Shown here: in pieces, positions 11,529 to 48,839 of the stretch
Layout: every line of letters starts with the position of its first letter
How positions within the stretch are numbered: position 1 is the stretch's first letter
Assembly: GCA_000472185.1 (NCBI GenBank)
Contig: AVDB01000005.1
Span: 62,001 to 126,000 of the forward strand
Length of the DNA: 64,000 bases
Direction of reading: 5' to 3'
DNA from: Rhodobacteraceae bacterium HIMB11
GTDB lineage: Bacteria > Pseudomonadota > Alphaproteobacteria > Rhodobacterales > Rhodobacteraceae
Position numbers and translations under genes: made by a program
The notes under the pieces: model-generated
Databases searched by the model: none
What the model was told of the DNA's origin: nothing
The model's input: the letters and a program-made list of their open reading frames with translations, nothing else

Positions 11529-14033
11529 ATGCAAACTCATGTAAAAGCACTGGTTGTCGGCGGTGGCGCCGTTGGAACATCAATCGCCTATCATTTGGCC
11601 AAGGCCGGGTGGAAAGATGTCATGCTTTTGGAAAGGGATGAGTTGACCTCTGGTTCAACCTGGCACGCGGCAGGATTGTTGCCATTGTTTAACATGTCCT
11701 ATGCGACAACTCATATTCACAAATATTCGGTCGATTTCTACAAAACACTTGAGGAAGAAACCGGTTTGGATGCGGGTTTCTTTGTTGTGGGCAACTTGCG
11801 TATGGCGCAAACTCAGGAACGCATGGATGAATACATGTTGTATGCATCAACGGCTGAAACATGCGACGTTCCATACGAATGGATGACACCCGCACAAATA
11901 AAAGAGCGTTGGCCATTGGTGCGGACCGAGGATTTGAAAGGTGCGATTTACCACCCAACAGACGGCTACATCAATCCAGCCGATGTCACCATGGCGATGG
12001 CCAAAGGCGCGCGTCAGCGTGGTGTTATCATTGAACGCAAGTGGCAAGTTGACGGCTATGAATGGACGGGATCCGAATGGCGTGTCACGGTCACCAAAAT
12101 GGTGGAAAAGGGTGGCAACCTGGTCGCATCAGATGAACAGACTGTGATTACAGCGGAACACGTTGTGACAGCAACAGGTAACCACGCACAGCGGACCGCC
12201 AAATTGTTGGGTATTAAAATCCCTGCGATCCCAGTGGAACACCAGTTTATCGTAACGGAACCCGATCCCGCGCTGGTCGCATTTCGCGAGGCGGGCAATA
12301 TTGAACACCCCGTTTTGCGCGATGCCGATGCAAAATGGTACGTCCGTGAAGAGCGTGGCGGTTGGATCCTAGGTCCATACGAACGCAATGCGCCTGCGCG
12401 TTTTGAATATGGTGTGCCAGATAGTTTCCGCGCCGATTTGTTCCCATTGGATTTGGAACGAATTGAAGAAGAATACATGTCCATGATCCACCGCATTCCA
12501 TCAACAGAGGAAGTGGGTCTAAAGGACGATTATAACGGTCCGATCTGCTACACACCTGATGGTAACCCATTGGTTGGTCCCGCACCTGGTTTGCGCAATA
12601 TGTGGTTGGCCGAAGGATTTTCATTCGGCATCACCGCAGCAGGTGGTACAGGATATTACCTTGCCCAGATGATGGTGGATGGTGAGGCGGAAATCGACAT
12701 GGCCTCGCTTGATCCAAAACGCTACGGGTCATGGATGACGACCGAGTATGCAGCGCGCAAGAACGAAGAATGTTACGAACATGTATACATCCTTCATCAC
12801 CCAGATGAAGAGCGCGAGGCCTGCCGCCCATTGCGCACGGCCCCTGCCTATGATCGTCAAAAGGAGCTGGGTGCCCAATTCGGTTGTGTAAACGGATGGG
12901 AACGTCCGAATTACTACGGTCCGTCGGATGCCTCAGACAGTTTTGATCACGATGCGCGTAGTTTCCGCCGCGGCGGTTGGTGGCAATACGCCAAGGACGA
13001 GGCCAAGGCGGTTCGTGAAGGTGTTGGTTTGATTGATGCAACCGCGTTCACAAAACATCTGCTAAAGGGCCCAGGCGCCACACAATTCTTGGATTGGTTT
13101 ACCTGTAACAAATTGCCCAAAGCCGGTCGTATCAATCTGACCTATGCGCTGACAGGTGCGGGCACAACACGTACGGAATATACCATCGTGCGCATTGCAG
13201 AGGATGAATATTACCTTGTGTCCGCAGGCGCATGGCAAGCCTATGACAGCGATTATCTGCAAAAAGCTGTTGAAGATAAAATCCCTGAGTTTGGATATAT
13301 GTCCGTGCAGGATGTCACATCACAGTGGGGCGTATTCGCCATCGCAGGTCCAAAGTCGCGTGATGTGTTGAAAGAGGTGATCAAGGATGCTGATCCTGAC
13401 ACTGCGCTTTCCAATAAACGTTTCCCCTGGTTATCCGCGCGTCAGATTGAATTGGGCATGTGCCCCGTGAATGCGATCCGCGTGGCCTATACAGGTGAAT
13501 TGGGTTGGGAATTGCACCACCCGATCGAAATGCAACGCTATCTTTGGGATTTGTTGATGGAGGCAGGTGCAAAGCATGACATGAAACTTGTCGGCGCGCG
13601 CGCGCAAAACTGGCTGCGTCAGGAAAAATCCTACCGAGCCTTTGGCAATGAATTGGGACGCGATGCCACACCACTTGAGGCGGATTTGCCCCGCTTTATC
13701 GACATGAACAAAGAGTTCTACGGCAAGGCCGAGCTTGAGGCGATTGGTGTGCGCAGCAAATGTATCACCGTGCTAATTAATGGCCCAGATGATGCTGATC
13801 CATGGGGGCGCGAGGCGCTTTACCTTGAGGATGGAACCCGCGTTGGGCGTTTGACGTCAGGCGGATATTCGGTGGCCTTCGATCAATCAATCGGCATGGG
13901 ATATGTTCGTCCTGATGTGGCGTTCGAGGGGCAAAAGCTTAAGGTGAAAATGCAGGATAAACTATGGGATGCCGTCATCACATGCGACAGCCCCTATGAT
14001 CCCAAAAACGAAGTGATCCGCAAAGACGGATAA
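11529..14033 (+). CDS. FAD-dependent oxidoreductase-GcvT fusion, dimethylglycine/sarcosine dehydrogenase-like
   Basis: An 834-residue two-domain enzyme. The N-terminal half is a DAO-type FAD fold: GGGAVGTSIAYHLAKAG at residues 9-25, and GSTWHAAG, whose histidine is where FAD is covalently attached in mammalian dimethylglycine and sarcosine dehydrogenases. The C-terminal half resembles GcvT, the tetrahydrofolate aminomethyltransferase (for example AYTGELGWELH). Such fusions oxidatively demethylate N-methyl glycines and pass the C1 unit to tetrahydrofolate. A good AAAGGAG site precedes the ATG. It stands alone between the mreB operon and an aldehyde dehydrogenase and is a paralogue of two genes at 41-47 kb. 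The exact substrate cannot be read from the sequence. Confidence 0.85.
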   Translation: MQTHVKALVVGGGAVGTSIAYHLAKAGWKDVMLLERDELTSGSTWHAAGLLPLFNMSYATTHIHKYSVDFYKTLEEETGLDAGFFVVGNLRMAQTQERMDEYMLYASTAETCDVPYEWMTPAQIKERWPLVRTEDLKGAIYHPTDGYINPADVTMAMAKGARQRGVIIERKWQVDGYEWTGSEWRVTVTKMVEKGGNLVASDEQTVITAEHVVTATGNHAQRTAKLLGIKIPAIPVEHQFIVTEPDPALVAFREAGNIEHPVLRDADAKWYVREERGGWILGPYERNAPARFEYGVPDSFRADLFPLDLERIEEEYMSMIHRIPSTEEVGLKDDYNGPICYTPDGNPLVGPAPGLRNMWLAEGFSFGITAAGGTGYYLAQMMVDGEAEIDMASLDPKRYGSWMTTEYAARKNEECYEHVYILHHPDEEREACRPLRTAPAYDRQKELGAQFGCVNGWERPNYYGPSDASDSFDHDARSFRRGGWWQYAKDEAKAVREGVGLIDATAFTKHLLKGPGATQFLDWFTCNKLPKAGRINLTYALTGAGTTRTEYTIVRIAEDEYYLVSAGAWQAYDSDYLQKAVEDKIPEFGYMSVQDVTSQWGVFAIAGPKSRDVLKEVIKDADPDTALSNKRFPWLSARQIELGMCPVNAIRVAYTGELGWELHHPIEMQRYLWDLLMEAGAKHDMKLVGARAQNWLRQEKSYRAFGNELGRDATPLEADLPRFIDMNKEFYGKAELEAIGVRSKCITVLINGPDDADPWGREALYLEDGTRVGRLTSGGYSVAFDQSIGMGYVRPDVAFEGQKLKVKMQDKLWDAVITCDSPYDPKNEVIRKDG

Positions 14034-14170
14034 TTAAATGCTAACCTGATTTATCGCGCGCAGCGTCCAGTTGCGCGCGCACGTGGGCCAAGGGTTCCAA
14101 TCATTTTCAATTTGGGCGACCAACAGAGGTGGGACCTCGTCGCGACAAATTGTTCATTTACGTAAAATTA

Positions 14171-14197
14171 AAAAGAGCGCCTGTTTCGGCGCTCTTT
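14171..14197. terminator. Bidirectional intrinsic terminator
   Basis: A strong hairpin, AAAAGAGCGCC paired with GGCGCTCTTTT around a short TGTTTC-type loop, with A and T runs at both ends. It sits between the convergent flavoenzyme gene (ends 14033) and the aldehyde dehydrogenase gene (ends 14226) and should stop transcription in both directions. Confidence 0.85.
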
Positions 14198-14225
14198 TAT
14201 TTAAAATTTTGAAATATACGCGGTT

Positions 14226-15668
14226 TTATGCGTCGGGTTTCCAACCAGAAACGGATTTGATTTCTAAGAAATCCTCGATGCCCCAAAGTCCACCCTCACG
14301 TCCGTTGCCCGATTGTTTCATACCGCCAAAGGGCGCACCTGCGCCGCGAGATGTGCCATTCATTTCCACCATGCCAGAACGCAAGGCGCGGGCCAATCTG
14401 TTTGCGCGTGTGCCATCCTGTGTCTGCACATAGTTGGTCAGGCCGTAAACCGTATCATTGGCGATTTTGATGGCCTCTTCTTCGGTATCAAAAGGCATCA
14501 TTGATAAAACTGGGCCAAAGATTTCTTCCCGCATGATGGTCATGTCGTTATTGCAATCGGCAAAAACAGTTGGTCGAATGAAATAGCCGCGGTTCATGCC
14601 TTCGGGGCGTCCTGGGCCGCCCGCGATCAAACGTGCGCCTTCTTCTATGCCCTTTTCGATCATGCCTTGGATTTTTTCAAACTGAACGGCGTTTACAACG
14701 GGGCCAATGTGGCGCCCTTCGTCACTTGCGGAACCAACAGTCACCTTTGCCGCAGTCTCAGCCGCGATTTCAACGGCCTGATCATAGATATCACGTTGTA
14801 CCAACATACGCGTTGGCGCATTACAGGATTGGCCCGTGTTGTTCATGCAATGTAGGACGCCACGTTTGACGGCCTTTTCATCCGCATCGGCAAAGATAAT
14901 GTTTGCACCCTTACCCCCCAATTCAAGGTGAACGCGTTTAAGTGTGTCCGCCGCACTTTTGGAAATCAGACGACCGGCGCGTGATGACCCAGTAAAGCTA
15001 ACCATGTCCACATCTGGATGCGCGCTGAGCTGAGTGCCGACACCAACACCGTCGCCGTTTACAAGGTTAAAGACACCCGCTGGGAATCCCGCCTCGTCCA
15101 TTAATTCGGCGAAAATCATGGCGTTCAGCGGGCTCTCCTCAGATGGTTTCAAAACCATTGTGCATCCTGCGATTGCCGCCGCACCCACCTTTAGGGTGAC
15201 TTGGTTCATGGGCCAGTTCCATGGCGTGATCAACGCTGCAACACCCACGGCCTCATAAATAATGCGGTCATTTGGTGCACGATCATTTAGGGGGCGATCA
15301 AATTCAAATCCCTTGGCCGCACGGATAAAGTTTTTCAAATGCCATGATCCTGCAGGTGTTTGTTGCCCTGCCGCCATGTCGATTGGCGCACCCATTTCCA
15401 TGCTGATCGCCTCGGCCATATCGGCGGCGCGGGTGTTGTAACGATCCATTAATTTTTCAACCAATGCGATCCGATCCCCGACAGGGGTTACCATCCATGC
15501 AGGGAGCGCCGCTTTGGCGGCGGCAACCGCTGCATCTGTATCTGCCTGCCCACCTAGGGAAATTGTGGCACAGGCCTCTTCTGTTGATGGATTGATAACC
15601 TGATGATCACGCCCGTCCTTTGGGTCCACCCAAGATCCGTTGATGTAAAATTGACGTTTCTCGATCAT
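14226..15668 (-). CDS. Aldehyde dehydrogenase family protein
   Basis: A 480-residue NAD(P)-dependent aldehyde dehydrogenase. Visible motifs are TPWNWPMNQ (cofactor and oxyanion region), FTGSSRAGRLI (nucleotide binding), LELGGKGANIIF with the general-base glutamate, and NTGQSCNAPTR with the catalytic cysteine. The ATG at 15668 has an AAGGAG site 7-8 bases upstream; an in-frame ATG at 15683 has none as good. It is monocistronic, divergent from the peroxiredoxin and convergent with the flavoenzyme, which makes a role with amine-derived aldehydes possible, but the substrate is not identified. Confidence 0.9.
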   Translation of the reverse strand: MIEKRQFYINGSWVDPKDGRDHQVINPSTEEACATISLGGQADTDAAVAAAKAALPAWMVTPVGDRIALVEKLMDRYNTRAADMAEAISMEMGAPIDMAAGQQTPAGSWHLKNFIRAAKGFEFDRPLNDRAPNDRIIYEAVGVAALITPWNWPMNQVTLKVGAAAIAGCTMVLKPSEESPLNAMIFAELMDEAGFPAGVFNLVNGDGVGVGTQLSAHPDVDMVSFTGSSRAGRLISKSAADTLKRVHLELGGKGANIIFADADEKAVKRGVLHCMNNTGQSCNAPTRMLVQRDIYDQAVEIAAETAAKVTVGSASDEGRHIGPVVNAVQFEKIQGMIEKGIEEGARLIAGGPGRPEGMNRGYFIRPTVFADCNNDMTIMREEIFGPVLSMMPFDTEEEAIKIANDTVYGLTNYVQTQDGTRANRLARALRSGMVEMNGTSRGAGAPFGGMKQSGNGREGGLWGIEDFLEIKSVSGWKPDA

Positions 15669-15830
15669 GATATGCTCCTTCATCCAGTGGTCGTTTTTGT
15701 CGACTCAAGAATTTGATCAAATTATACGCGGCAGAGTGTCACTGTCATACAGTTATTGCAATAGGCCTGTGTAACTTATCTATGTGATCTCATATATATA
15801 ATTTCATGAATATATAAGAGGAGCACCTAA

Positions 15831-16481
15831 ATGGGTTTACGCATCAACGACATCGTTCCGAATTTTATTGCTGAAACGGACCAAGGTCAGATCACCTTTC
15901 ATGACTGGATCGGCGACAGCTGGGCCGTTCTGTTTTCACACCCCAAGGATTATACACCCGTTTGTACCACTGAGTTTGGGGCAGTTGCGCAATTGGCGGA
16001 TGAATGGGCCGCGCGTAACACCAAGGTGATTGGTCTATCTGTTGATGGTGTGGAAGAGCATAAAGGTTGGAAAGCAGACATCGAGTCGTTTTCTGGTGCG
16101 CCAGCATCTTTTCCAATTATTGCGGATGAAAACCTAGCCGTTTCAAAACAGTTCGACATGCTTCCTGCGGATGCCTATTTGCCTGATGGACGCACCGCCA
16201 CAGACAGCGCATCGGTGCGTTCTGTTTTCATCATTAGCCCCGATAAAAAGGTGCAGTTGATCATGACGTACCCAATGTCAGTGGGCCGTAATTTCGCAGA
16301 AGTCTTGCGTGCACTTGACGGGTTGCAGGCGACATTTGGACAACCTATCGCAACACCTGCGAATTGGACAACGGGCCAAGATGTGATTGTCGCACTAACC
16401 CTGAACGATGATCAGGCACGTGAAAAATTTGGTGAAATTGACGTCAAACTTCCATATTTGCGGACAACAAAACACGCATAA
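15831..16481 (+). CDS. 1-Cys peroxiredoxin (Prx6 type)
   Basis: A 216-residue peroxiredoxin. The peroxidatic cysteine is in HPKDYTPVCTTEFG at about residue 45, and the protein has no other cysteine, so it belongs to the 1-Cys class and needs an outside thiol to be recycled. The long C-terminal region (PYLRTT near the end) is typical of the Prx6 group. It reduces hydrogen peroxide and alkyl hydroperoxides. An AGAGGAG site lies just upstream in an AT-rich leader. Monocistronic. Confidence 0.93.
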   Translation: MGLRINDIVPNFIAETDQGQITFHDWIGDSWAVLFSHPKDYTPVCTTEFGAVAQLADEWAARNTKVIGLSVDGVEEHKGWKADIESFSGAPASFPIIADENLAVSKQFDMLPADAYLPDGRTATDSASVRSVFIISPDKKVQLIMTYPMSVGRNFAEVLRALDGLQATFGQPIATPANWTTGQDVIVALTLNDDQAREKFGEIDVKLPYLRTTKHA

Positions 16482-38211: not shown

Positions 38212-39243
38212 TCAGGCAATCATCTGCCACACCATCCCTGATATAATTGCCCCAGTCACGGCCAAGCCCAAGTAGGCGGCGAAAACACGTGGTTTCACCA
38301 GGGCCCAAACCGCAAGCGCGGCTGGAATACAGCTGACCCCGCCTGCGATCATGAAACTTAGCGCTGCGCCTGTGCTCATGCCTTGGGTCATTAATGCGTC
38401 AACCAATGGAACGGCGGCATAGCCATTCAAATAGGCGGGCGCACCGATGAATGAGGCCAGGATGATTGTTCCAATGCCTTCCCCGCCCAAGGCTTGCGCG
38501 ACCCATTCGGCAGGGATGTAGCGGATCATCAATGCCTCGATTGTGTAGGCCATTAGCAACCATTTGGTCAGGAAAACCGCGTTTTCGACGGCCGTATCGC
38601 GAAAGGCCAGTTTGCGTTCACTGTCCTGCCAAAACGCCCAAACGGGTTTCCCCTGAAACGGGGCCTTTACGCCGCAGCATCCACCAACCTTGGGCTTTTC
38701 CCGCAGGGGATCAACAAAGACAGGATTGTTTGACAGCGCCATTGTTACAAATCCCCCAAAGAGGCCCAGACCAACCGCCGCAACGGTTTTGGCGATTGCA
38801 AAATCGAATCCCAATGTTCCACTGGTGATGGCGAACATCGCAGGGTCCATCAATGGGGAGGACAGCCAAAACGCCATTACCGCGCCAAGAGGGGCACCAA
38901 CGGCCAAAAGTGCCGCAATAAACGGGATCACCTCGCATGAACAAAAGGGTGATAATCCGCCCAGCAGCGCGGCCAACACTATCATGCGGGATTGCGCCCC
39001 CTCAAACGCACGCGCCAACAATGTTTCCGCGCCTGTCGCCTTTAGATAGGCAACCGCAAGCACCGCAAAGATGATAAATGGCGCGGTACTGGTCATTGCA
39101 TTTGCTGTGAACCCCAAGGTTGCCCAAAATTCAGCAGGCAGAAACAGCGCAACACAGACATAAATTACAATGATTGCCGCGAATGCGCCGTCAATTTTTG
39201 GGAATTGGCGTGTTGATTGGCTTAGGTCAGTCATGGCATTCAT
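38212..39243 (-). CDS. Permease, UPF0718/ArsP-like
   Basis: A protein of about 343 residues with eight or more transmembrane segments in two related halves. The family motif LSPFCSCEVIPFIAALL carries a cysteine pair near residue 100, and GGCCGV follows in a central loop. The family includes ArsP, which exports trivalent organoarsenicals, and other permeases of unknown cargo. It overlaps or abuts the upstream arsR-like gene, whose product has a cysteine-rich tail, which supports a thiophilic metal(loid) or thiol-related cargo. Starts at 39243, 39234 and GTG 39261 are all possible. Confidence 0.82.
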   Translation of the reverse strand: MNAMTDLSQSTRQFPKIDGAFAAIIVIYVCVALFLPAEFWATLGFTANAMTSTAPFIIFAVLAVAYLKATGAETLLARAFEGAQSRMIVLAALLGGLSPFCSCEVIPFIAALLAVGAPLGAVMAFWLSSPLMDPAMFAITSGTLGFDFAIAKTVAAVGLGLFGGFVTMALSNNPVFVDPLREKPKVGGCCGVKAPFQGKPVWAFWQDSERKLAFRDTAVENAVFLTKWLLMAYTIEALMIRYIPAEWVAQALGGEGIGTIILASFIGAPAYLNGYAAVPLVDALMTQGMSTGAALSFMIAGGVSCIPAALAVWALVKPRVFAAYLGLAVTGAIISGMVWQMIA

Positions 39244-39571
39244 GCTCGCATGTTGGATCACAATCAGCGCAGCATTCTGTCATCAAAAATTGTGAAAGTG
39301 TTTCGATTTGATCATAGGCGACCGCCGCACAAATAATGGAGCGCCCTTGCTTTGTCTGCGTAACCAGACCCGCGTGGTTCAGTATTTTGACATGATGGGT
39401 TAGGGTTGATCCCGTGACACCACAGCGATCACCCAAGATGCCAATTGGCAAACCGTTCGGTCCCGCACGCACCAATGTGCGCAGAACGTGCAAACGTTGT
39501 TCAGACCCAAGTGCCGCAAATGTGGATGCTGCAACCTCGAGCGTCAGTGTGGAGGCGTCAAATATTTTCAT
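39227..39571 (-). CDS. ArsR-family regulator with cysteine-rich C-terminus
   Basis: A 114-residue winged-helix repressor. The HTH spans about residues 30-80, with GVTGSTLTHHVKILNHAGLV as recognition region. The C-terminus ends in CCADCDPTCEHECHD, five cysteines and two histidines in 15 residues, a likely metal(loid) sensor site. It precedes the permease gene with a short overlap, as in sensor/exporter pairs. A palindrome (39570-39593) overlaps its start codon and is the probable operator, implying autorepression. Confidence 0.85.
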   Translation of the reverse strand: MKIFDASTLTLEVAASTFAALGSEQRLHVLRTLVRAGPNGLPIGILGDRCGVTGSTLTHHVKILNHAGLVTQTKQGRSIICAAVAYDQIETLSQFLMTECCADCDPTCEHECHD

Positions 39572-39593
39572 ATTTCTAAAAATATCGAAATAT
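39570..39593. promoter_or_regulatory. Probable ArsR-type operator
   Basis: A perfect inverted repeat, ATATTTC and GAAATAT with a 10-bp AT-rich spacer, overlaps the start codon of the arsR-like gene. AT-rich palindromes at the promoter are the usual binding sites of this family. The divergent UDG-family gene starts 56 bases away and could be affected as well. Confidence 0.6.
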
Positions 39594-39648
39594 AGGCGTA
39601 CGTCAACAATTGTTTTGTATGTCCAGCGCAATGACCTATCCTTGGGGT

Positions 39649-40236
39649 ATGCCCAATTCCGTCTTTGATGAATTATCAAACTGCCGCCTGTGCGCCGAAC
39701 GATTTGGCGCGACGAAAACACAACATGAACCGCGCCCCGTTGTTTGCGGGGAACAATCCGCGCGTATTTTGATCGCAGGGCAGGCACCCGGTGCAAGGGT
39801 GCATCAAAGTGGGCTGCCCTTTACCGACCCATCTGGTGATCGTTTACGGGACTGGATGGATGTAACGGAGGCTGAATTTTACGACCCTGCCCGCATTGCA
39901 ATTTTGCCTATGGCGTTTTGTTTTCCAGGATACAACGAAAAGGGCGCTGATTTACCGCCCCCGCCGATTTGTGCTCGTACATGGCGTGCACGGGTCATTG
40001 CAGGCTTTCCAAATATTCGCCTGACGTTGGTGATCGGGCAATATGCGCAGAAATGGCATTTGCCACGGTTTAGCAACGTCACAGATACGGTTCGGGGGTG
40101 GAAAGCTCATGGATCAGACGTTTTTCCCTTGCCTCACCCATCGTGGCGCAATAACGCATGGTTAAAGAAAAACCCGTGGTTTGAAATTGATTTGTTGCCC
40201 GAACTGCGCCGTCGTATCCAAGAGGAGCTGAGATGA
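39649..40236 (+). CDS. Uracil-DNA glycosylase family protein
   Basis: A protein of about 195 residues of the UDG superfamily. The motif GQAPGARVHQSGLPFTDPSG resembles motif A of family 4/5 enzymes, and LPHPSWRNNAW resembles the HPSxxN motif B. An N-terminal CRLC pair and a later cysteine could be part of a metal or FeS site, but the full four-cysteine set of family 4 is not clear, so DNA glycosylase activity is likely but not certain. ATG 39649 was taken; ATG 39631 is an alternative. Coupled to sseB by an ATGA overlap. Confidence 0.78.
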   Translation: MPNSVFDELSNCRLCAERFGATKTQHEPRPVVCGEQSARILIAGQAPGARVHQSGLPFTDPSGDRLRDWMDVTEAEFYDPARIAILPMAFCFPGYNEKGADLPPPPICARTWRARVIAGFPNIRLTLVIGQYAQKWHLPRFSNVTDTVRGWKAHGSDVFPLPHPSWRNNAWLKKNPWFEIDLLPELRRRIQEELR

Positions 40237-41018
40237 GTGAAACAGTGATTGATCGCGCATTTGCCACCATGCAAGCCGCGCCCGAGGATGAGGCCGCGCA
40301 CCTTGCGTTTTATGAACGTGTCGCGGACGCAGAACTGTACCTATTGTTGGAAAAAGAAGCGGCCGCAGACGTCATAGAACCCAAGGTGATTGAAGGGGGT
40401 GGCGAAAATTTGGTCCTTGCCTTTGATACGGCGGACCGTCTGGCGAACTTTGCGGGCGATGTTGCGCCCTATGTCGCGCTGTCGGGTCGGGTGTTGGTAT
40501 CCTTGTTGGTTATGGAAAAAATGGGGATGGGTCTAAATCTGGGCGTTGAGAGTTCCGAGACGCTGATCCCAAGCGATTCTATTGAGTGGTTAAGCGATGC
40601 GCTGGGTGAAACCCCCGATGAGTTTGAGGCACGCCCCGCAGAATTTCTGCCACCTGCGGGTATTCCTGAACCGGTGTTAAAGGCGCTGGATACAAAACTG
40701 GTTGCGGCTGCGGGTTTGGTTGAACAGGTCTGGCTGTGTCAGGTTGTCTATGATGACGATAGCCGCGGGCATTTATTGGCGTTTATCAATGCCGAACCAA
40801 ACGCCGAACGCGCATTGGCCAAATGCACGCACGAGGCGATTGCATTTTCTGGTGTTGATGCGGCCAGTTTGGATGTCGCGTTTTTTGACGCGGACGAAAC
40901 TGCAGCGGCAGCTATTACCAAGGTTGGATTACGGTTTGAATTGCCAGAAATCGTCCAAGAAAAAATCCCCGGCTCTGCACCGGGGATGGATCCAAATTCA
41001 CCGCCAAAGCTTAAGTAA
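40233..41018 (+). CDS. SseB family protein
   Basis: A 261-residue protein with an N-terminal SseB domain (about residues 10-125, including YLLLEKEAAADVIEPKVIEG) and a C-terminal half that resembles the SseB C-terminal domain. Function is poorly known. It starts in the ATGA overlap with the UDG-family gene. The last 20 codons hold a hairpin that is an intrinsic terminator for the opposite strand, and its stop codon is 1 base from the end of the convergent flavoenzyme gene. Confidence 0.8.
   Translation: MSETVIDRAFATMQAAPEDEAAHLAFYERVADAELYLLLEKEAAADVIEPKVIEGGGENLVLAFDTADRLANFAGDVAPYVALSGRVLVSLLVMEKMGMGLNLGVESSETLIPSDSIEWLSDALGETPDEFEARPAEFLPPAGIPEPVLKALDTKLVAAAGLVEQVWLCQVVYDDDSRGHLLAFINAEPNAERALAKCTHEAIAFSGVDAASLDVAFFDADETAAAAITKVGLRFELPEIVQEKIPGSAPGMDPNSPPKLK
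40960..40987 (-). terminator. Intrinsic terminator of the betaine-demethylation operon, inside sseB
   Basis: On the minus strand ATCCCCGG pairs with CCGGGGAT (perfect 8 bp, 7-base loop) and is followed directly by TTTTTT. It begins 32 bases past the stop codon of the last operon gene (41020), wholly within the coding end of the convergent sseB gene, where it encodes the residues around IPGSAPGMD. Confidence 0.8.
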
Positions 41019-41019
41019 A

Positions 41020-43467
41020 TCAGACTTTGCAGCGCGCGCCCGTGGGGTCATACATCGGTTTCAAAGATGCTGTGGCATCCACCAAGGTACCTGCCACATC
41101 GATTTGATAGGATGATGCCAAAACATCAGCGGCACTTTCACCTGGGCATGGGACATAGCCCATGCCAACCGCGCCGCCCAAATGATGGCCATAAGACCCC
41201 GAGCTGAGATAGCCAACAATTTTCCCGTCCCGCAGGATCGGTTCATTGTGATAGAGCAGCGGTTCTGGGTCATTCAGCAGGAACTGCACCATGCGGCTTT
41301 CTGGGCCATTTTCCTTGGTCCGCAAAACAGCATCACGGCCTATGAACGCCTCTTTCTTGGTTGAAACGGCTAACCCCAAACCGGCGGCGATCACGTTATC
41401 CTCTGTTGTGATGTCGTGACCAAAGTGGCGGAATGCCTTTTCAATGCGGCAGCTGTCCATCATATGCATGCCGCAGAGTTTCAGGCCATGATCCTGACCC
41501 GCATCCCACAGGGTTTCAAAGATATGCCCCGCCTGATCCGCGCCGACATAGATTTCCCAACCCAATTCACCTACATAGGATACGCGATGCACACGTGCCA
41601 GTCCCATGCCAATTTCAATTTCTTGGGCTGTGCCAAATGGGTTGACTTCATTTGAAAAATCATTGGGTGACACGGCCTGCATCAGTTTACGCGCATTGGG
41701 CCCCATGACGGCCAACACCCCTTCGGATGCGGTGACATCGGTGATCACAACATTGCGATCGCCTGCGTGACGACGCATCCATGTTTCATCCGACAAACGT
41801 GTGGCCGCAGGTGTCACCACCAAATAGGCCGTCTCAGACAGGCGTGTGACGGTGACATCCGCCTCAATCCCTGCGCGTTCATTCAGGAATTGGGTATAAA
41901 CGATTTTTCCTACAGGAACCGACATATTCGCCCCGCAAATGTGGTTTAGAAATGCCTCTGCGTCACGGCCCTCAACCCGAATTTTCCCGAATGAGGACAT
42001 ATCGTACATTCCCACATTTTCGCGGATTGCGCGGTGTTCGCGTGCGGAATTCTCAAACCAGTTTTGGCGTTTCCAGCTGTATTGATATTCACGTTCTTGG
42101 CCGTCATCCGCGAACCAGTTCGCGCGTTCCCATCCCGCCAATTCGCCAAAGACAGCGCCGTTTTGGTCCAAGTGGTGATGGAATGGTGTGCGGCGAATAC
42201 CCCGTGCGGTGGCCTTTTGACGATAGGGGAAGTGATCCGCATAAAGCAGGCCTAAGGTTTCCTTGGATCGTTCAAATAGATAGGTTTTGTTCCCTTGGAA
42301 CGGGTTCATGCGTGAAATATCAACATCACCCAAATCAAAGGGTTTTTCGCCGCTGTCCATCCATCGCGACAGTGCCATACCCGCGCCTCCTGCGGATTGG
42401 ATACCGATTGAGTTAAAGCCTGCGGCAACCCAAACATTATCCATTTCTGGTGCGAGACCCAAGTGATAGGCATCGTCAGGCGTAAAACTTTCTGGTCCAT
42501 TGAAGAAGGTGTGAATGCCCGCCTCGCCCAACATCGGCATGCGGTTTACGGCCATTTCCAAGATGGGTTCAAAATGGTCGAAATCTTCGGGCAGTTGGTC
42601 AAATTCAAAATCTGCGGGAATGCCACCCATCGCCCATGGTTTTGAATTCGGCTCAAACGCGCCCAACATCATCTTGCCTGCGTCTTCTTTGTAATAGGCG
42701 CATTCATCGGGAACGCGCAGAACGGGCAGTTGGCTGAGCCCGTCAATTGGTTCGGACACGATATAAAAATGTTCGCACGCATGCAGCGGTACATTCACAC
42801 CCGACATGCGCCCAACTTCGTGGCCCCACATACCTGCGCAGTTCACGATCATATCGCATTCGATATGTCCACGATCTCCATCTTCGGCGACCCAATCAAC
42901 GCCGGTGACACGGCGGTCGTCTTTGTGGATGTTTGATACCCGCACGCGCTCTTGGACGATTGCGCCACGCATCCGCGCGCCTTTAGCCATGGCCAATGCG
43001 ATATTCGCAGGGTCCCCTTGACCGTCTTTGGGCAGGTAAACACCACCCACCACATTTTCCAGATTTAGGTGTTCATAGCGCGCACCAACCTCGGCAGGTG
43101 ATATTTCTTCAATTTCAACGCCGAACGCGCGGGCCATTGCGGCACTGCGGCTCAGCTCTTCCATACGTTCTTCGGTCAACGCAACGGTGATTGATCCGAC
43201 ACGTTTAAACCCTGTGGCAACCCCAGTTTCTTCTTCTAGTGCGCCATAAAGTTCCTGAGAATATTTGGCGAGCTTGGTCATATTCGCAGTCGCGCGCAAC
43301 TGGGCAATCAATCCTGCTGCATGCCATGTTGTCCCAGACGTCAGCTGTTTGCGTTCCAAAAGAACCACGTCTTTCCAACCCAATTTGGTTAGGTGATAGG
43401 CCACCGAACATCCGATGACACCACCGCCAATGATGACGACACGTGCTTTGTTTGGTAGGGTAGGCAT
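41020..43467 (-). CDS. FAD-dependent oxidoreductase-GcvT fusion, sarcosine/dimethylglycine dehydrogenase-like
   Basis: An 815-residue two-domain flavoenzyme. GGGVIGCSVAYHLTKLGW binds FAD, GTTWHAAG carries the histidine expected to hold FAD covalently, and the C-terminal half is GcvT-like (YVGELGWEIYV, then RIEKAFRHFGHDI). By family it should demethylate dimethylglycine or sarcosine and load the C1 unit on tetrahydrofolate. The ATG at 43467 has a GAGGAGT site; the frame is open to 43626. Third enzyme gene of the five-gene operon, 10 bases after the homocysteine methyltransferase gene, ending at the terminator within sseB. Which of the two operon flavoenzymes takes which substrate is not decided by sequence. 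Confidence 0.87.
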   Translation of the reverse strand: MPTLPNKARVVIIGGGVIGCSVAYHLTKLGWKDVVLLERKQLTSGTTWHAAGLIAQLRATANMTKLAKYSQELYGALEEETGVATGFKRVGSITVALTEERMEELSRSAAMARAFGVEIEEISPAEVGARYEHLNLENVVGGVYLPKDGQGDPANIALAMAKGARMRGAIVQERVRVSNIHKDDRRVTGVDWVAEDGDRGHIECDMIVNCAGMWGHEVGRMSGVNVPLHACEHFYIVSEPIDGLSQLPVLRVPDECAYYKEDAGKMMLGAFEPNSKPWAMGGIPADFEFDQLPEDFDHFEPILEMAVNRMPMLGEAGIHTFFNGPESFTPDDAYHLGLAPEMDNVWVAAGFNSIGIQSAGGAGMALSRWMDSGEKPFDLGDVDISRMNPFQGNKTYLFERSKETLGLLYADHFPYRQKATARGIRRTPFHHHLDQNGAVFGELAGWERANWFADDGQEREYQYSWKRQNWFENSAREHRAIRENVGMYDMSSFGKIRVEGRDAEAFLNHICGANMSVPVGKIVYTQFLNERAGIEADVTVTRLSETAYLVVTPAATRLSDETWMRRHAGDRNVVITDVTASEGVLAVMGPNARKLMQAVSPNDFSNEVNPFGTAQEIEIGMGLARVHRVSYVGELGWEIYVGADQAGHIFETLWDAGQDHGLKLCGMHMMDSCRIEKAFRHFGHDITTEDNVIAAGLGLAVSTKKEAFIGRDAVLRTKENGPESRMVQFLLNDPEPLLYHNEPILRDGKIVGYLSSGSYGHHLGGAVGMGYVPCPGESAADVLASSYQIDVAGTLVDATASLKPMYDPTGARCKV

Positions 43468-43477
43468 GTTAAACTCC

Positions 43478-44371
43478 TCACACGATATTATGACCAGCGT
43501 CTTTGATTTGCTTGGCCAATTCTTGGATGTGTTCTGGACCAACTTCGCAACAGCCACCAACGATGGTTGCGCCTTGGTCGATCCAATGCATTGCAAATTT
43601 TGCGTATTCAGCAGGCCCCAGATCATGACGTTCGCTTAGGGCGTCTACTGTTGGTTTATCTGTTAAAAAACCGTCCGAAATTTTTGTGAAACCATTGGCA
43701 TAGGCCCCAAAGGGCAGGCCAAATGATTTCATATCTTCCAGCGCATCTGTCACCGCCTCGGGGCGGGAACAATTGACCAAAACTGCCTCAACACGGTGAT
43801 TTTGCAAAAGGTCCGAAAGGTCCGAGACATTTTCACCAGAGCGTAGTTTTGATCCATCAAAATCATCAACAGAAAACGCAATCCAAACAGGTTTGTTGGT
43901 TTTATCCGTTGCGCGTAATGCGCCCTCTGCCTGTTTCAGGGATGACACCGTTTCGATCAGCAAAAAATCGGTCTGTTCTGCCAAATGCGCAACAATGTCC
44001 GAATATTGGTGTTCTGCATCCGTAGGTTCAGGACAGATATCAGGGCGATAGGTTGCGATCAGTGGGCCGATTGACCCCGCAACGCGACCATGACCATTGG
44101 CCCGCGCCGCATTTCGCGCAGATTTAATGGCAGCATCCCACAGACGGCGAATATCCAAATCATACCCATTGGTATCCAACCTATCCTGCAACACAGGATA
44201 GGTGTTGGTTGTGGCAATCGTTGCGCCCACGCGGAAATATTCCGCGTGAACCTGATCCATCAATTCTGGATGTTCGATCATAACCATCGTTGACCAAAGC
44301 GCGGTTGGCGTATCGCCTGAACGCTTCATCAATTCTTGGCCAATAGACCCGTCAAGAAGTGTGATGTCCAA
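43478..44371 (-). CDS. Homocysteine S-methyltransferase (betaine-homocysteine type)
   Basis: A 297-residue pterin-independent methyltransferase. DGSIGQELM opens the barrel, and the three zinc cysteines are in VNCSRPEAV and GGCCEVGPEHI. The length and GGCC motif fit BHMT/S-methylmethionine-type enzymes. Placement between two dimethylglycine/sarcosine dehydrogenase-like genes argues for betaine as methyl donor: betaine + homocysteine gives dimethylglycine + methionine. S-methylmethionine or DMSP-derived donors remain possible. Gaps are 15 bases to the upstream gene and 10 to the downstream one. Confidence 0.87.
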   Translation of the reverse strand: MDITLLDGSIGQELMKRSGDTPTALWSTMVMIEHPELMDQVHAEYFRVGATIATTNTYPVLQDRLDTNGYDLDIRRLWDAAIKSARNAARANGHGRVAGSIGPLIATYRPDICPEPTDAEHQYSDIVAHLAEQTDFLLIETVSSLKQAEGALRATDKTNKPVWIAFSVDDFDGSKLRSGENVSDLSDLLQNHRVEAVLVNCSRPEAVTDALEDMKSFGLPFGAYANGFTKISDGFLTDKPTVDALSERHDLGPAEYAKFAMHWIDQGATIVGGCCEVGPEHIQELAKQIKDAGHNIV

Positions 44372-44386
44372 TCTGACCTCCGCAGG

Positions 44387-46843
44387 TTAGGCGCGCAAAC
44401 GCTCGTTCTTTGGGTCCCACAATGGTTGATCTTCTTGCACGACGGCTTTGTGGCGTTGTCCATAAATCTCAACCTCAATCTCGGTGCCAGGAACGGCAAG
44501 ATCGGTGCGCAACATACCCAACGCGATTGAGGCATTTACACGATACCCCCATGCGCCTGATGTTGTTTCACCAACAACTTCATCCCCCTGCCACAGGGTT
44601 GACATGTATGGCGCATCACAGGCCCCTGCATCTACCGTTAGGGTGACAAAACGTTTTGCAACGCCTTGCTGTTTTTCTGTCAACATCGCGGCCTTGCCTG
44701 GAAAATCAACCTCTTTGTCCAATTTGACAAAACGGTCCAATCCGCCTTCAAGCAGGCTGTAGTCAGTGGACAAATCGCCCTTCCACGCGCGGTACCCTTT
44801 TTCGGTCCGAAGTGAGTTCAAGGCCCACATTCCGAATGGTTTTGCACCTGCATCAGTGATCGCGTCCCAAATCGCAGGAGCGGCATCATTTGCACAGTGA
44901 ATTTCCCAGCCCAATTCGCCCGCAAACGACACACGTGCCAATGCGCATTTATGGCCTGCAACGGTCCCTTCCATGCTGATCGATAGCCAAGATGCAGACA
45001 GATCATGTCCTTCGGTGATCGGTTCAAGGATTTTGCGCGCATTTGGACCTGTGACCAACAAACACTCCATCTCTTTGGTGTTGTCGGTGATTGTGATGCC
45101 TTCTGGTGCTTGACGCGTTAGGATTTCTATATCGTGCCATTGTGCCGTTGCCGCAGTGATTAGGCCAACTTCCTCTTCGGACCAGGCCATCACGGACATT
45201 TCCGTTAGGATGCGACCACGATTATCGGGGAAGTATGCCAATGAAATCCGACCCGGTTTCGGCAAACGTGATGCGGTTAGGCTGTCAACAAAATCGCGCG
45301 CGCCTTCGCCTGTGACACTGTAGCGTGAAAAGCCTGTGATTGCCAAAATTCCGCAGTTGTCCCGCACAGCTTCGCATTCTTCGCGGATGCGTTGTTCCCA
45401 CGGGCCTGCGCGGTCCCATGTTTGTGTGCTTTCTTCGCTGGTGTCATCACCCGCTTGGGCAAACCAATTTGCGCGCTCCCATCCGTTATAGGCCCCAAAT
45501 TGTGCGCCTGCGTCCTGTAGGCGGCTGTGAAGAGGAGAATGTTTTTTGTCGCGTCCCGCGGGCCATTCGTGCCATGGGAAATGCATTGCATATTCGTGAC
45601 CATAAACTTCCATACCCTTTTGGTCACAGTAATCTTGGTCGGTGTAATCAGTATAACGACGCGGATCGACAGACCACATATCCCATTCGGTTTGTCCTTC
45701 GACCACCCATTCCGCCAATACCTTGCCCGCGCCGCCAGATTGCGCGATCCCAAATGTGAATACACAAGCCTCAAACGCATTTGGCACACCCGGCATCGGC
45801 CCGATCAGCGGCAGACCATCGGGTGCGTATGGAATTGGACCGTTGATTACTCGGCTAACGCCAGAGGTGCCCAGTAGCGGGACACGCGCCATGGCGTCCT
45901 CGATATACCACTCAATCCGTTCAAGATCGTCTGGATAGAGTTGGAAGCTAAAGTCATCGGGCATCGGATCATTTGGTGTCATCCAGTGGCCCTTACAGTT
46001 GCGCTCATAGGGGCCAAGGTTAAAGCCGTGCTTTTCCTGACGTAGGTAATAACTGCTATCCACATCGCGCAGTAGGGGCAGTTTGTGTCCTGTTTCTTTT
46101 GTATAGGCCTCGATTTCTGGGACCTCTTCTGAGAGCAGATATTGATGGGACATAACCATCATTGGCACGGTACGACCACCATATGGTTTGAACCATTCGC
46201 CAACACGTTGCGCGTAATATCCCGCGGCGTTCACAACGTATTCGCAGCGAATGTCACCCCTTTCTGTATGAACGATCCATTCGCCGTTTTCGCGGCTGAC
46301 CCCAGTGGCAGGCGTAAAGCGCAGGATTTGCGCGCCCATATCACGCGCACCTTTGGCAAGCGCCTGTGTTAACTGCGCAGGGTCAATGTCACCGTCATGC
46401 GGATCATAAAGTGACCCTGCCAGATCATGCGTTTCAAGGAATGGATAGCGTTCCTGTGTTTCCGTAGGGTTAAGGATTTCGATTGGCATGCCCTGATATC
46501 GGCCCATGCCCGCCGCGCGTTCAAATTCTTGCATCCGTTCTTTTGAGTGTGCCAGACGAATTGAACCTGTGACGTGATAGTTCATGGGATAATCAACCGC
46601 TTTGCCCAACCCGCGATACAGTTCGGTTGAGTACCGCTGCATGTTCATAATTGACCAGCTGGTCGAAAATGTTGGAACGTTGCCCGCTGCGTGCCATGTC
46701 GATCCAGCAGTCAGTTCGTTCTTTTCAAGAAGGACACAGTCGCTCCAGCCCATTTGGGCTAAATGATACAGGCAGGATGCGCCAACAGCGCCCCCTCCAA
46801 TGATGACGACGCGTGCAGTGGTTGGAAATTCTGACATTTTCAT
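44387..46843 (-). CDS. FAD-dependent oxidoreductase-GcvT fusion, dimethylglycine dehydrogenase-like
   Basis: An 818-residue two-domain flavoenzyme. GGGAVGASCLYHLAQMGW binds FAD, AGSTWHAAG has the covalent-FAD histidine, and the C-terminal half is GcvT-like (SFAGELGWEIHC, then LRTEKGYRAWKGDL). It differs clearly from its operon neighbour after the WHAAG motif (NVPTFSTSWSI against LIAQLRATANM), which suggests separate substrates. A CAGGAG site precedes two ATGs six bases apart (46843 and 46837); either may be used. It follows the LysE gene by 20 bases. Confidence 0.87.
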   Translation of the reverse strand: MKMSEFPTTARVVIIGGGAVGASCLYHLAQMGWSDCVLLEKNELTAGSTWHAAGNVPTFSTSWSIMNMQRYSTELYRGLGKAVDYPMNYHVTGSIRLAHSKERMQEFERAAGMGRYQGMPIEILNPTETQERYPFLETHDLAGSLYDPHDGDIDPAQLTQALAKGARDMGAQILRFTPATGVSRENGEWIVHTERGDIRCEYVVNAAGYYAQRVGEWFKPYGGRTVPMMVMSHQYLLSEEVPEIEAYTKETGHKLPLLRDVDSSYYLRQEKHGFNLGPYERNCKGHWMTPNDPMPDDFSFQLYPDDLERIEWYIEDAMARVPLLGTSGVSRVINGPIPYAPDGLPLIGPMPGVPNAFEACVFTFGIAQSGGAGKVLAEWVVEGQTEWDMWSVDPRRYTDYTDQDYCDQKGMEVYGHEYAMHFPWHEWPAGRDKKHSPLHSRLQDAGAQFGAYNGWERANWFAQAGDDTSEESTQTWDRAGPWEQRIREECEAVRDNCGILAITGFSRYSVTGEGARDFVDSLTASRLPKPGRISLAYFPDNRGRILTEMSVMAWSEEEVGLITAATAQWHDIEILTRQAPEGITITDNTKEMECLLVTGPNARKILEPITEGHDLSASWLSISMEGTVAGHKCALARVSFAGELGWEIHCANDAAPAIWDAITDAGAKPFGMWALNSLRTEKGYRAWKGDLSTDYSLLEGGLDRFVKLDKEVDFPGKAAMLTEKQQGVAKRFVTLTVDAGACDAPYMSTLWQGDEVVGETTSGAWGYRVNASIALGMLRTDLAVPGTEIEVEIYGQRHKAVVQEDQPLWDPKNERLRA

Positions 46844-46863
46844 GCACTCCTGTTTTTCGTGTT

Positions 46864-47472
46864 TTATCTAGCAGCCAGTCCAAGCAATATTCCGTATGCG
46901 ACAAAACATGCTGCCAGTATGCGTTGGATCCAGAAATTAGTGATGTGATCAAGTGCGCGGCGCCCAAGGTGTGCCCCAAGTGCGCAATAGCCTGTGTAGC
47001 TTAGCGTGGTTAGGATCAGCGCAGTGGGTACAATCACCCACATTTGCGTGCCAATAGGAACGGCGGGTTCCGCGAATTGGGAAAAGGCGGCGATGTAACC
47101 AGCAAGGGATTTTGGGTTTATCGCCGCGATTAGAAACGCTTTCACATAAAGCGTTCTGTGTGAAACCATGCTGTTTTTTCGTGGGTGCCCCGCCAGCATC
47201 CAGTTTCGAACACCGAGCCAAATCAAAAATACAACGCCGCTCCAGCGTAGGATTTCAAACAGCAATGGGGATGTTAAAATCAACGCAGATACCCCAACAG
47301 CCGAAAATCCAAGGAACAAACACGCTTGCGTTAGGATCCCAAGGACGCAGATCAAGCTTTTCCGAAATCCGATATCAATGGCTGTTTGAATACAGTTAGC
47401 GGCATTCGGGCCTGGGGTTGTCACAAATAACACCCAGAACGTTGCGAATATGAACCATCCCTCAATGCTCAT
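46864..47472 (-). CDS. LysE/RhtB family exporter
   Basis: A 202-residue membrane protein with six hydrophobic segments and the family motif TTPGPNAANCIQTAIDIGFR near residues 18-37. LysE/RhtB proteins export amino acids such as lysine, threonine or homoserine. The ATG follows the regulator's TAA stop with no gap. In this operon the cargo could be methionine, glycine or an intermediate of betaine breakdown; that is inference from context only. Confidence 0.85.
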   Translation of the reverse strand: MSIEGWFIFATFWVLFVTTPGPNAANCIQTAIDIGFRKSLICVLGILTQACLFLGFSAVGVSALILTSPLLFEILRWSGVVFLIWLGVRNWMLAGHPRKNSMVSHRTLYVKAFLIAAINPKSLAGYIAAFSQFAEPAVPIGTQMWVIVPTALILTTLSYTGYCALGAHLGRRALDHITNFWIQRILAACFVAYGILLGLAAR

Positions 47473-48045
47473 TTAATACACCGGGGGCGCAATAACCCAG
47501 ATCGCGATGGCAGGATCAGGGTAGGGGTTTGACCATTCAAACATTTCGCCGCGAATTCGGAAACTATCCCCCGCGCCGACTGTAAATCGACGCCCGCCAA
47601 TCACCAGATCCAATTTGCCTTGGATGATATAGGCGACTTCTTGGGTGGCGCGTAAAACAGGCTCTGCCGTTTTTGAACCAGGCTTAAAAACCGAATGGAT
47701 CATTTCGAAATCATCGGTCAAATCTGGCGAGAGTAGCCCCTCTTTCAAACCTGTTTGGCGTTCTGAAATATCGCGTCGCGCATTGGCACGCACGATATAC
47801 CCCTGTTCGATTTCAGGGATTGTTTCCTCTAGCCCAAATATCGCCTCAGAAACATCCAGTGTTTTGGCGAGTTCTGCGATATCTTCTGCTGCGGGGGTTG
47901 AAAGATCACGTTCAACTTGGCTGAGCCATCCAACGGATTTTCCCATGCTTTCCGCCATTTGAGACAGTGTCAGGCCACGCGCCTTGCGCAAGGTGCGGAC
48001 ATCTGCACCAAGTGTTTTTTGCGCAATTTGGGTCTGGATCGTCAT
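47473..48045 (-). CDS. XRE-family regulator with C-terminal cupin domain
   Basis: A 190-residue regulator. The HTH is around residues 15-70 (LRKARGLTLSQMAESMGKSV, then SQVERDLSTPAAEDIAEL), and a cupin sensor domain spans about 110-185 (LDLVIGGRRFTVGAGDSFRI). This layout is common for regulators of amine and amino-acid catabolism, with the cupin sensing a small metabolite. First gene of the operon it probably controls; its TAA is followed at once by the LysE start. An imperfect AT-rich palindrome lies just upstream. Confidence 0.87.
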   Translation of the reverse strand: MTIQTQIAQKTLGADVRTLRKARGLTLSQMAESMGKSVGWLSQVERDLSTPAAEDIAELAKTLDVSEAIFGLEETIPEIEQGYIVRANARRDISERQTGLKEGLLSPDLTDDFEMIHSVFKPGSKTAEPVLRATQEVAYIIQGKLDLVIGGRRFTVGAGDSFRIRGEMFEWSNPYPDPAIAIWVIAPPVY

Positions 48046-48078: not shown

Positions 48079-48182
48079 TCTATGCCGCAGAAACCTGACT
48101 CTTGCAACGAAAATCTTGATTGAGGATCGGTGTTATGAAGGCTAAAGCAAAGAGACGCTTTATCATTCAGGAAACCGTTTTC

Positions 48183-48839
48183 ATGCCGCCCTTCCAATCT
48201 GAGTATAACCCACCCAATGATCCGATTGAGGTGGTTTATGAAGATGCGCATGTTGTGGCCGTGAATAAACCTACGGGGTTGTTGTCGGTACCGGGTAAAG
48301 GTGAACACCTGTCCGATTGTATGTTGTCTCGTGTTATGGTCGCCTTTCCCGATGCGTTATTGGTGCACCGATTGGATCGGGATACATCTGGGGTGATGGT
48401 CTTTGCGCTGACAGTGCATGCCCAGCGGTCAATGTCGATGCAATTCGAAGCGCGCAGCACGAAAAAGACATATGTGGCCTGCGTTGCGGGTGAGTTTAAA
48501 GAAAGCGAGGGCGAAATTGATTTGCCCCTAATCGTTGATTGGCCCAATCGACCAAAGCAGATGGTATGCCATGAAACGGGGAAACCCGCGGTGACAGAAT
48601 TCAAACGTATGTCTGTCACAGATGGTCGATCGCGTTTGCGCCTATTTCCGAAAACGGGACGGTCGCATCAGTTGCGCGTGCATTGTTTGGCGATTGGGCA
48701 TCCGATTTTGGGTGATCCGCTTTATGCCCCGGAAACCGTTGCGGATTTTCCGCGTCTTTTGTTGCACTCTGAAGAGTTGCGCATAAACCACCCAGAAAGC
48801 GGAAAAGGATTGCGCTTCCGTGCAAAATGCCCGTTTTGA
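48183..48839 (+). CDS. RluA-family pseudouridine synthase
   Basis: A protein of about 218 residues of the RluA family. LLVHRLDRDTSGVMVFAL carries the catalytic aspartate (HRLDRDTSG), and RLRLFPKTGRSHQLRVHC and GHPILGDPLY are the further family motifs. It converts uridine to pseudouridine in rRNA or tRNA; the target is not decided. There is no S4 domain. ATG 48183 (AGGA upstream) starts at the usual family N-terminus; ATG 48135, with a GAGGA site, would add 16 residues that look unlike the family. Confidence 0.87.
   Translation: MPPFQSEYNPPNDPIEVVYEDAHVVAVNKPTGLLSVPGKGEHLSDCMLSRVMVAFPDALLVHRLDRDTSGVMVFALTVHAQRSMSMQFEARSTKKTYVACVAGEFKESEGEIDLPLIVDWPNRPKQMVCHETGKPAVTEFKRMSVTDGRSRLRLFPKTGRSHQLRVHCLAIGHPILGDPLYAPETVADFPRLLLHSEELRINHPESGKGLRFRAKCPF

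Follow-up and report, generated by a model that had tools for sequence, protein, structure and literature searches.

A five-gene operon with paired GcvT-fused flavoenzymes in Rhodobacteraceae bacterium HIMB11, a modest variant of known demethylation chemistry

Two routes described for glycine betaine come closest to a five-gene operon of Rhodobacteraceae bacterium HIMB11 that encodes two flavoenzymes fused to GcvT domains, here called FAO_A and FAO_B, and a homocysteine methyltransferase, HMT. The operon lies in a stretch of 64,000 nucleotides (contig AVDB01000005.1, positions 62,001 to 126,000), hereafter referred to as the window. In Ruegeria pomeroyi (PMC12478193), genetics assigns glycine betaine demethylation to the cobalamin proteins MtgC and MtgD, with MtgB added by proteomics, and not to a Bhmt: mutants show that growth on this compound requires MtgC and MtgD, the levels of two MtgB proteins increase, and the protein resembling Bhmt is MtgE, which forms part of methionine synthase. 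HIMB11, a similar bacterium, resembles this MtgBCD system in combining an MttB-family methyltransferase with later demethylations and in encoding, near each other, a protein of the Bmt/MtgE type and a B12-binding protein that stands alone. It differs in that the MttB gene is unlinked to the operon and that the operon holds an extra homocysteine methyltransferase that is not of the MtgE type. The second route, predicted for SAR11 (PMC3160333), consists of betaine-homocysteine methyltransferase (BHMT), dimethylglycine dehydrogenase (DMGDH) and sarcosine dehydrogenase (SARDH). The HIMB11 operon likewise joins one homocysteine methyltransferase to two flavoenzymes, but HMT does not score as a BHMT on the model, and HIMB11 also has a B12 route. 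Among the matches listed by a literature search, no paper was recognised as describing a FAO_A-HMT-FAO_B operon.

Operon structure and the flavoenzyme pair

The five-gene operon is genuine, this N-demethylation operon is widespread, and its core chemistry is already known. In the sense of transcription, from 48045 to 41020, the features are:

47473..48045, minus strand: XRE-cupin transcriptional regulator, 190 aa (HTH_31/HTH_3 and Cupin_2)
46864..47472, minus strand: LysE-family exporter, 202 aa (PF01810)
44387..46843, minus strand: FAO_A, GcvT-fused flavoenzyme of the DMGDH superfamily, 818 aa (DAO, FAO_M, GCV_T and GCV_T_C)
43478..44371, minus strand: HMT, zinc-type homocysteine S-methyltransferase, 297 aa, TTG start (PF02574, S-methyl_trans)
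41020..43467, minus strand: FAO_B, second GcvT-fused flavoenzyme, 815 aa (DAO, FAO_M, GCV_T and GCV_T_C)
40987-40965, minus strand: terminator-like hairpin just past FAO_B, 9 pairs with a T tail

The initial annotation had described a compact operon of five leftward genes with gaps of 0, 20, 15 and 10 bases, including two GcvT-fused flavoenzymes. The open reading frames (ORFs), together with a FAO_B start at 43467, confirm this order and these gaps, and both flavoenzymes carry the full set of four domains. In the ORF list FAO_B begins at 43626, within HMT; its true start is likely the ATG at 43467, which is preceded by AGGAG overlapping the HMT stop codon. The domain, model, structure and ortholog searches with FAO_B were run on 41020-43470, one codon longer than this chosen start. 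The TTG start of HMT is preceded by GGAGG, and an alternative start of FAO_A is possible at ATG 46837. Plus-strand genes at 40233-41018 and 48120-48839 flank the unit. The hairpin past FAO_B says little by itself, because 13 similar sites occur in the 64-kb stretch against 8.8 (standard deviation 2.5) in shuffles. A scan of the whole stretch for promoter-like sequences returned one match against 7.2 in shuffles; it lies inside FAO_A, and there was none upstream of the XRE gene.

Orthologs were sought in 198 genomes of the family, incomplete ones included, with E-value limits of 1e-250 for the flavoenzymes, 1e-45 for HMT and 1e-170 for MttB. FAO_A was found in 122 genomes, FAO_B in 130, HMT in 104 and one type of MttB-family protein (MTTB) in 113; 118 genomes have both flavoenzymes. 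For the study of gene neighbourhoods, 88 clusters were picked by hand, namely that of the window and 87 from the remaining 117 genomes that have the pair, all with hits close together on one contig; other genomes were left aside, among them those in which the two hits fell on separate contigs or were truncated at a contig end. A gene was counted as in the cluster between -3.5 kb and +6.5 kb, and neighbouring genes were called with a home-made codon-usage script and tblastn rather than with a published gene finder.

In 88 of 88 loci, chosen as they were for hit proximity, FAO_A and FAO_B share a strand, with FAO_A as the upstream gene at a distance of 0 to 3.05 kb. This constant order, the five minus-strand ORFs and their short gaps support a compact operon, and FAO_A and FAO_B also co-occur across genomes. 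An XRE homologue was found by tblastn in 66 of the 88 clusters, and others lie near FAO genes on plasmids of Paracoccus, Rhizobium and Agrobacterium; the stable core is the XRE-cupin regulator with FAO_A and FAO_B. Further neighbours detected by tblastn are GFA (34 clusters), EamA/RarD (18), LysR (14), a 3-hydroxyisobutyrate-dehydrogenase-type gene (13), zinc ADH (11) and a GbdR-like gene (7). In two near-relative metagenome-assembled genomes (MAGs), in which the genes are split over contigs, HMT, FAO_A and FAO_B are 94-98% identical to those of the window, HMT itself being 94% identical in two Rhodobacteraceae MAGs, and LysE and XRE are 95-98% identical.

FAO_A scores 543 bits against DMGDH 5l46, and FAO_B scores 471 bits against DMGDH 4p9s and 404 bits against the dimethylglycine oxidase (DMGO) 1pj5; we take 4p9s, 5l46 and 1pj5 to be the rat, human and Arthrobacter enzymes, respectively. 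The pair shares with these proteins the domain order, the flavin-linked His, the active-site His and Tyr and the folate-site acid. The covalent-FAD His and the active-site His and Tyr are kept in all 88 FAO_A and all 88 FAO_B sequences, while the acid differs: every FAO_A has Glu, like rat DMGDH, and every FAO_B has Asp, like Arthrobacter DMGO. The roles of these residues, His and Tyr in the active site and the acid in the folate site, are assumed. Human DMGDH depends on FAD and tetrahydrofolate (THF), with FAD bound to His91 (PMC5082570). FAO_A and FAO_B probably form a folate-dependent double N-demethylase linked to the electron-transferring flavoprotein (ETF), although the conserved catalytic positions do not fix the substrate.

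In a tree rooted by choice on DMGO, with characterised SARDH sequences left out, FAO_A and FAO_B each form a clade of their own. FAO_A groups weakly (0.67) with rat DMGDH and with three paralogues from its own genome, and FAO_B falls outside this group. The nearest own-genome paralogue of FAO_A (support 1.0) is encoded beside genes for a choline sulfatase and a GMC oxidoreductase, with an MTTB gene adjoining.

A probable MttB-family partner outside the operon

An ORF and Pfam check of the five operon genes detected no MttB-family member. Nevertheless, MTTB is present in 105 of the 118 genomes with both flavoenzymes, compared with 83 for HMT, and only 4 of the 113 MTTB genomes lack both flavoenzymes. 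The association of FAO_A with MTTB gave a Fisher test value of 2.9e-29, calculated without regard to genome relatedness. Within the 88 clusters, MTTB was found in 26, following FAO_B in 25 of them and lying between FAO_A and FAO_B in one. Consistently, the FAO_B tree tracks the presence of MTTB, with 7 changes versus at least 15 in 300 shuffles. It hardly follows the presence of HMT (21 changes, shuffle minimum 21), for which the FAO_A tree requires 23 changes (shuffle minimum 21).

Among solved structures, the MTTB partner is nearest to the glycine betaine methyltransferase 9yce (184.5 bits), followed by the putative methyltransferase 2qne (184.4 bits) and the trimethylamine methyltransferase 7xcl (152 bits). 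Its best match in the HIMB11 genome, at C4:207126-208655, is 69% identical, unlinked to the operon and likely the orthologue. Since its neighbours are a TypA gene and a response-regulator-like gene, this location tells nothing about its substrate.

The HIMB11 assembly (3.1 Mb, 34 contigs) contains nine FAO_M (GcvT-fused) flavoenzymes over cut-off, at least three of which adjoin an MTTB, and nine MTTB proteins, besides two PF02574 proteins, four B12-binding matches and two SoxA over cut-off. The second PF02574 protein, on C6, reaches 561 bits on the BHMT model PRK07534 (cut-off 338) and is of the Bmt/MtgE type. About 2 kb from its gene, a 244-aa open frame holds a stand-alone B12-binding match.

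The homocysteine methyltransferase and the exporter

HMT had been annotated initially as betaine-type, which the models do not bear out. It scores 64 bits on PRK07534, far below the cut-off of 338, and 144.5 bits on the NCBIfam MmuM model PRK09485, also below the cut-off (215); it passes PF02574 (204 bits, gathering cut-off 22) and has the zinc cysteines. The nearest solved structure is 5dml (76.9 bits), ahead of the 5-methyl-THF homocysteine methyltransferase 1q7m (57.1 bits) and BHMT (52.1 bits). This structure, which we take to be that of E. coli MmuM (S-methylmethionine:homocysteine methyltransferase), shares with HMT the Thr after the active-site Glu and the zinc-site cysteines. When HMT is aligned to BHMT, Trp44 and Glu159 are matched while Tyr77 and Tyr160 are not; all four are presumably betaine-site residues. 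The three zinc-site cysteines, Trp26 and Glu140 are invariant in 53 of 53 HMT sequences, the window's included. At the position of Tyr77 the window has P and 40 of the 53 have A, with Y in none, and at that of Tyr160, 51 have Thr and two have Ser. Judged by these models, HMT is nearer to MmuM than to BHMT and is not betaine-type. The residues alone cannot exclude betaine as a donor, because the Bmt/MtgE-type protein on C6 also lacks both tyrosines and because Bmt of Phaeobacter inhibens makes methionine from betaine and dimethylsulfoniopropionate in vitro (PMC12366255).

In 53 of the 88 clusters, HMT lies between FAO_A and FAO_B. This order invites the proposal that HMT demethylates glycine betaine with homocysteine, after which FAO_A, acting on dimethylglycine, and FAO_B, acting on sarcosine, would finish the route to glycine, in line with the SAR11 prediction. 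Such a role would fit the retained zinc-site cysteines and counterparts of BHMT W44 and E159, and the missing tyrosines do not exclude activity, for the reason just given. We nevertheless consider it decidedly unlikely: HMT falls short of the BHMT model, it occurs without either flavoenzyme in 9 of 104 genomes, and its frequency does not rise in the absence of MttB, as it is present in 5 of the 13 pair genomes without MTTB versus 78 of the 105 with it. This last comparison led us to reject, at genome level, the idea that HMT replaces MttB without cobalamin; the betaine-specific first step proposed initially is not supported. Inside the 88 clusters HMT and MttB exclude each other in part (43 with HMT only, 16 with MttB only, 10 with both and 19 with neither), a pattern that on its own would have misled toward substitution.

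HMT is also encoded away from the flavoenzymes. At 27 such loci (7 and 20 from two listings, examined from -5 kb to +4 kb around HMT), the neighbours were RluA-family genes (19), GAF-domain genes (15), GGT (10), GFA (9) and LysE (8), and an XRE gene was found at none. RluA-family genes are also near 39 of the 88 flavoenzyme clusters, and GAF-domain genes near 32. Plasmids of Dinoroseobacter, Palleronia, Limimaricola and Neorhizobium carry HMT homologues with no flavoenzymes annotated nearby. The 27 loci, all lacking XRE, indicate that an HMT locus exists without the demethylases and that the regulator belongs with the demethylases. HMT appears to be a homocysteine methyltransferase of another type with a loose attachment to the operon, and the flavoenzyme pair may have come to lie around it. 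Taken further, these data could mean that HMT and LysE are a separate methionine or homocysteine module that shares only the promoter and is metabolically unlinked to the pair, the more so as the three separate HMT loci whose LysE is at least 45% identical to that of the window are all in genomes without the pair. Such a complete separation seems unlikely given the interleaving of HMT with FAO_A and FAO_B in 53 clusters and its greater frequency with the pair (83 of 118 genomes) than without either flavoenzyme (9 genomes).

Two observations concern HMT and its neighbours. A GAF-domain neighbour was considered as a free methionine sulfoxide reductase and dropped, as two examples had no NCBIfam match at 1e-8. 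A contig labelled Ilumatobacteraceae (L012:4538-4915) holds part of HMT at 94% identity and is probably mis-binned.

The exporter is an optional member of the operon. Its best NCBIfam model, PRK10520 (homoserine/homoserine lactone efflux), gives 101.9 bits against a cut-off of 209. Since LysE is found in only 29 of the 88 clusters and occurs beside HMT alone as well (8 of the 27 separate loci), no substrate was read from it and it was dropped as a marker.

Proposed pathway and substrate

On balance, we lean towards a model in which the operon core consists of two N-demethylases acting in series after an MttB-type enzyme, with HMT using a donor of its own and LysE being optional. The unlinked MttB-type (MtgB-like) corrinoid methyltransferase at C4:207126-208655 would remove the quaternary methyl group first, working with the B12-binding protein encoded near Bmt/MtgE on C6. 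FAO_A and FAO_B would then take the tertiary and subsequently the secondary N-methyl group off a compound of the betaine class, with dimethylglycine and sarcosine as the likeliest substrates, each step yielding methylene-THF and passing electrons to ETF. HMT, whose locus also exists without the flavoenzymes and which would have ended up between them, may make methionine from its own donor, S-methylmethionine-like by nearest family, while LysE could export amino acids, perhaps surplus methionine or the demethylated amino acid. The substrate is likely of the betaine class, to which the choline sulfatase locus of the nearest FAO_A paralogue and, weakly, the grouping of FAO_A with rat DMGDH point, glycine betaine or dimethylglycine being the best candidates.

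The initial annotation had suggested that the enzymes could act as a series from betaine to glycine. A pair of folate-type flavo-demethylases and a plausible betaine-class substrate remain of this series; the HMT step and the finished route to glycine are not supported. It is only partly right because HMT looks like another methyltransferase, and glycine as end product is left doubtful by the nine FAO_M flavoenzymes and two SoxA of the genome.

Several results weigh against the model. The flavoenzyme pair occurs without MttB in 13 of 118 genomes, the co-occurrence tests ignore genome relatedness, and the FAO_A tree shows hardly any clustering of MttB presence (17 changes, shuffle minimum 18). 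The presence of HMT between FAO_A and FAO_B in so many clusters is hard to call accidental. By bit score, a divergent pair on C6 is more DMGDH-like, at 588 and 577 bits to mammalian DMGDH compared with 543 and 471 bits for FAO_A and FAO_B, and Lidbury et al. give DMGDH and SARDH of R. pomeroyi as SPO3400 and SPO3396 (PMC4744692); both points speak against dimethylglycine as the only answer. Finally, homologues of ETF, FolD and PurU were found in none of the 88 Rhodobacteraceae clusters.

Outside these clusters, on plasmids of Paracoccus, Rhizobium and Agrobacterium, such genes do accompany the pair. In Paracoccus seriniphilus it is followed by ETF-beta, a FAD-binding protein matching the ETF-alpha of the rhizobial clusters, FolD and PurU, and in Rhizobium leguminosarum and Agrobacterium tumefaciens it comes immediately after ETF genes, with PurU/FolD about 7 kb upstream. 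Sinorhizobium meliloti Ak57 has the order LysR, FAO_A, FAO_B and MttB (75% identical). Its FAO_B homologue (L236:11457-13743) consists of two overlapping matches with no gene in the PLSDB table, and may therefore be broken. A lone FAO_B homologue (69%) stands beside a divergent XRE gene on plasmid 1 of Paracoccus denitrificans PD1222 (L231:9207-12448), with sox genes about 7 kb away.

Some neighbourhoods suggest other substrates. In Sinorhizobium americanum (L233:954-16009), a FAO_B homologue (68%) is found near a glycine betaine/proline ABC importer and near proline racemase-family, DHDPS-family and aldehyde dehydrogenase genes, a locus that, in our assumption, resembles a hydroxyproline-betaine route. 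Histidine-utilisation genes (hutU, hutC and others) lie near six of the 88 clusters (L165-L168, L171 and L172), all of the MttB type. It is possible, though doubtful, that the same demethylases act on an N-methylated amino acid other than glycine, such as hydroxyproline-, histidine- or homoserine-betaine, with a product that is catabolised or exported by LysE. The nine flavoenzyme paralogues and two SoxA leave room for this, and the best LysE model is that of a homoserine exporter, if below cut-off. On the other hand, the six hut-neighboured clusters all belong to a single branch of seven members in the FAO_B tree, a search of the HIMB11 genome gave no hutU match, and the conserved catalytic positions are silent on the substrate. 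Histidine betaine was accordingly not adopted as the substrate; the hut neighbourhood is a possible hint toward it, confined to that small branch, and was kept as a lead only. Distinctly improbable, in our judgement, is the bolder proposal that FAO_A, FAO_B and MttB form an undescribed unit for the general demethylation of an N-trimethylated amino acid that is not glycine betaine (hydroxyproline-, histidine- or homoserine-betaine), with HMT transferring one of its methyl groups to give methionine and LysE exporting the surplus amino acid.

Two other loci of the window were noted. A third GcvT-fused flavoenzyme (11529-16481) lies near an aldehyde dehydrogenase and an AhpC/TSA peroxiredoxin, Pfam families that recur near many relatives' clusters. 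Near the operon but apart from it, on the minus strand at 38212-39796, an ArsP-type permease (PF03773) stands behind an HTH_20 regulator, and the two look like an arsenical efflux pair.

The operon works like a betaine demethylation operon and cannot be filed as a BHMT pathway; it is a modest variant of known chemistry. Rhodobacteraceae consume algal nitrogen-containing osmolytes, and the annotation names given to flavoenzymes and methyltransferases of this kind outrun the evidence. The genome counts split a conserved unit of FAO_A, FAO_B and MttB from eight other flavoenzymes of the same make in the genome (seven besides the pair, plus the partner copy) and set the loosely attached HMT apart, thereby singling out FAO_A, FAO_B and MttB for the betaine question.

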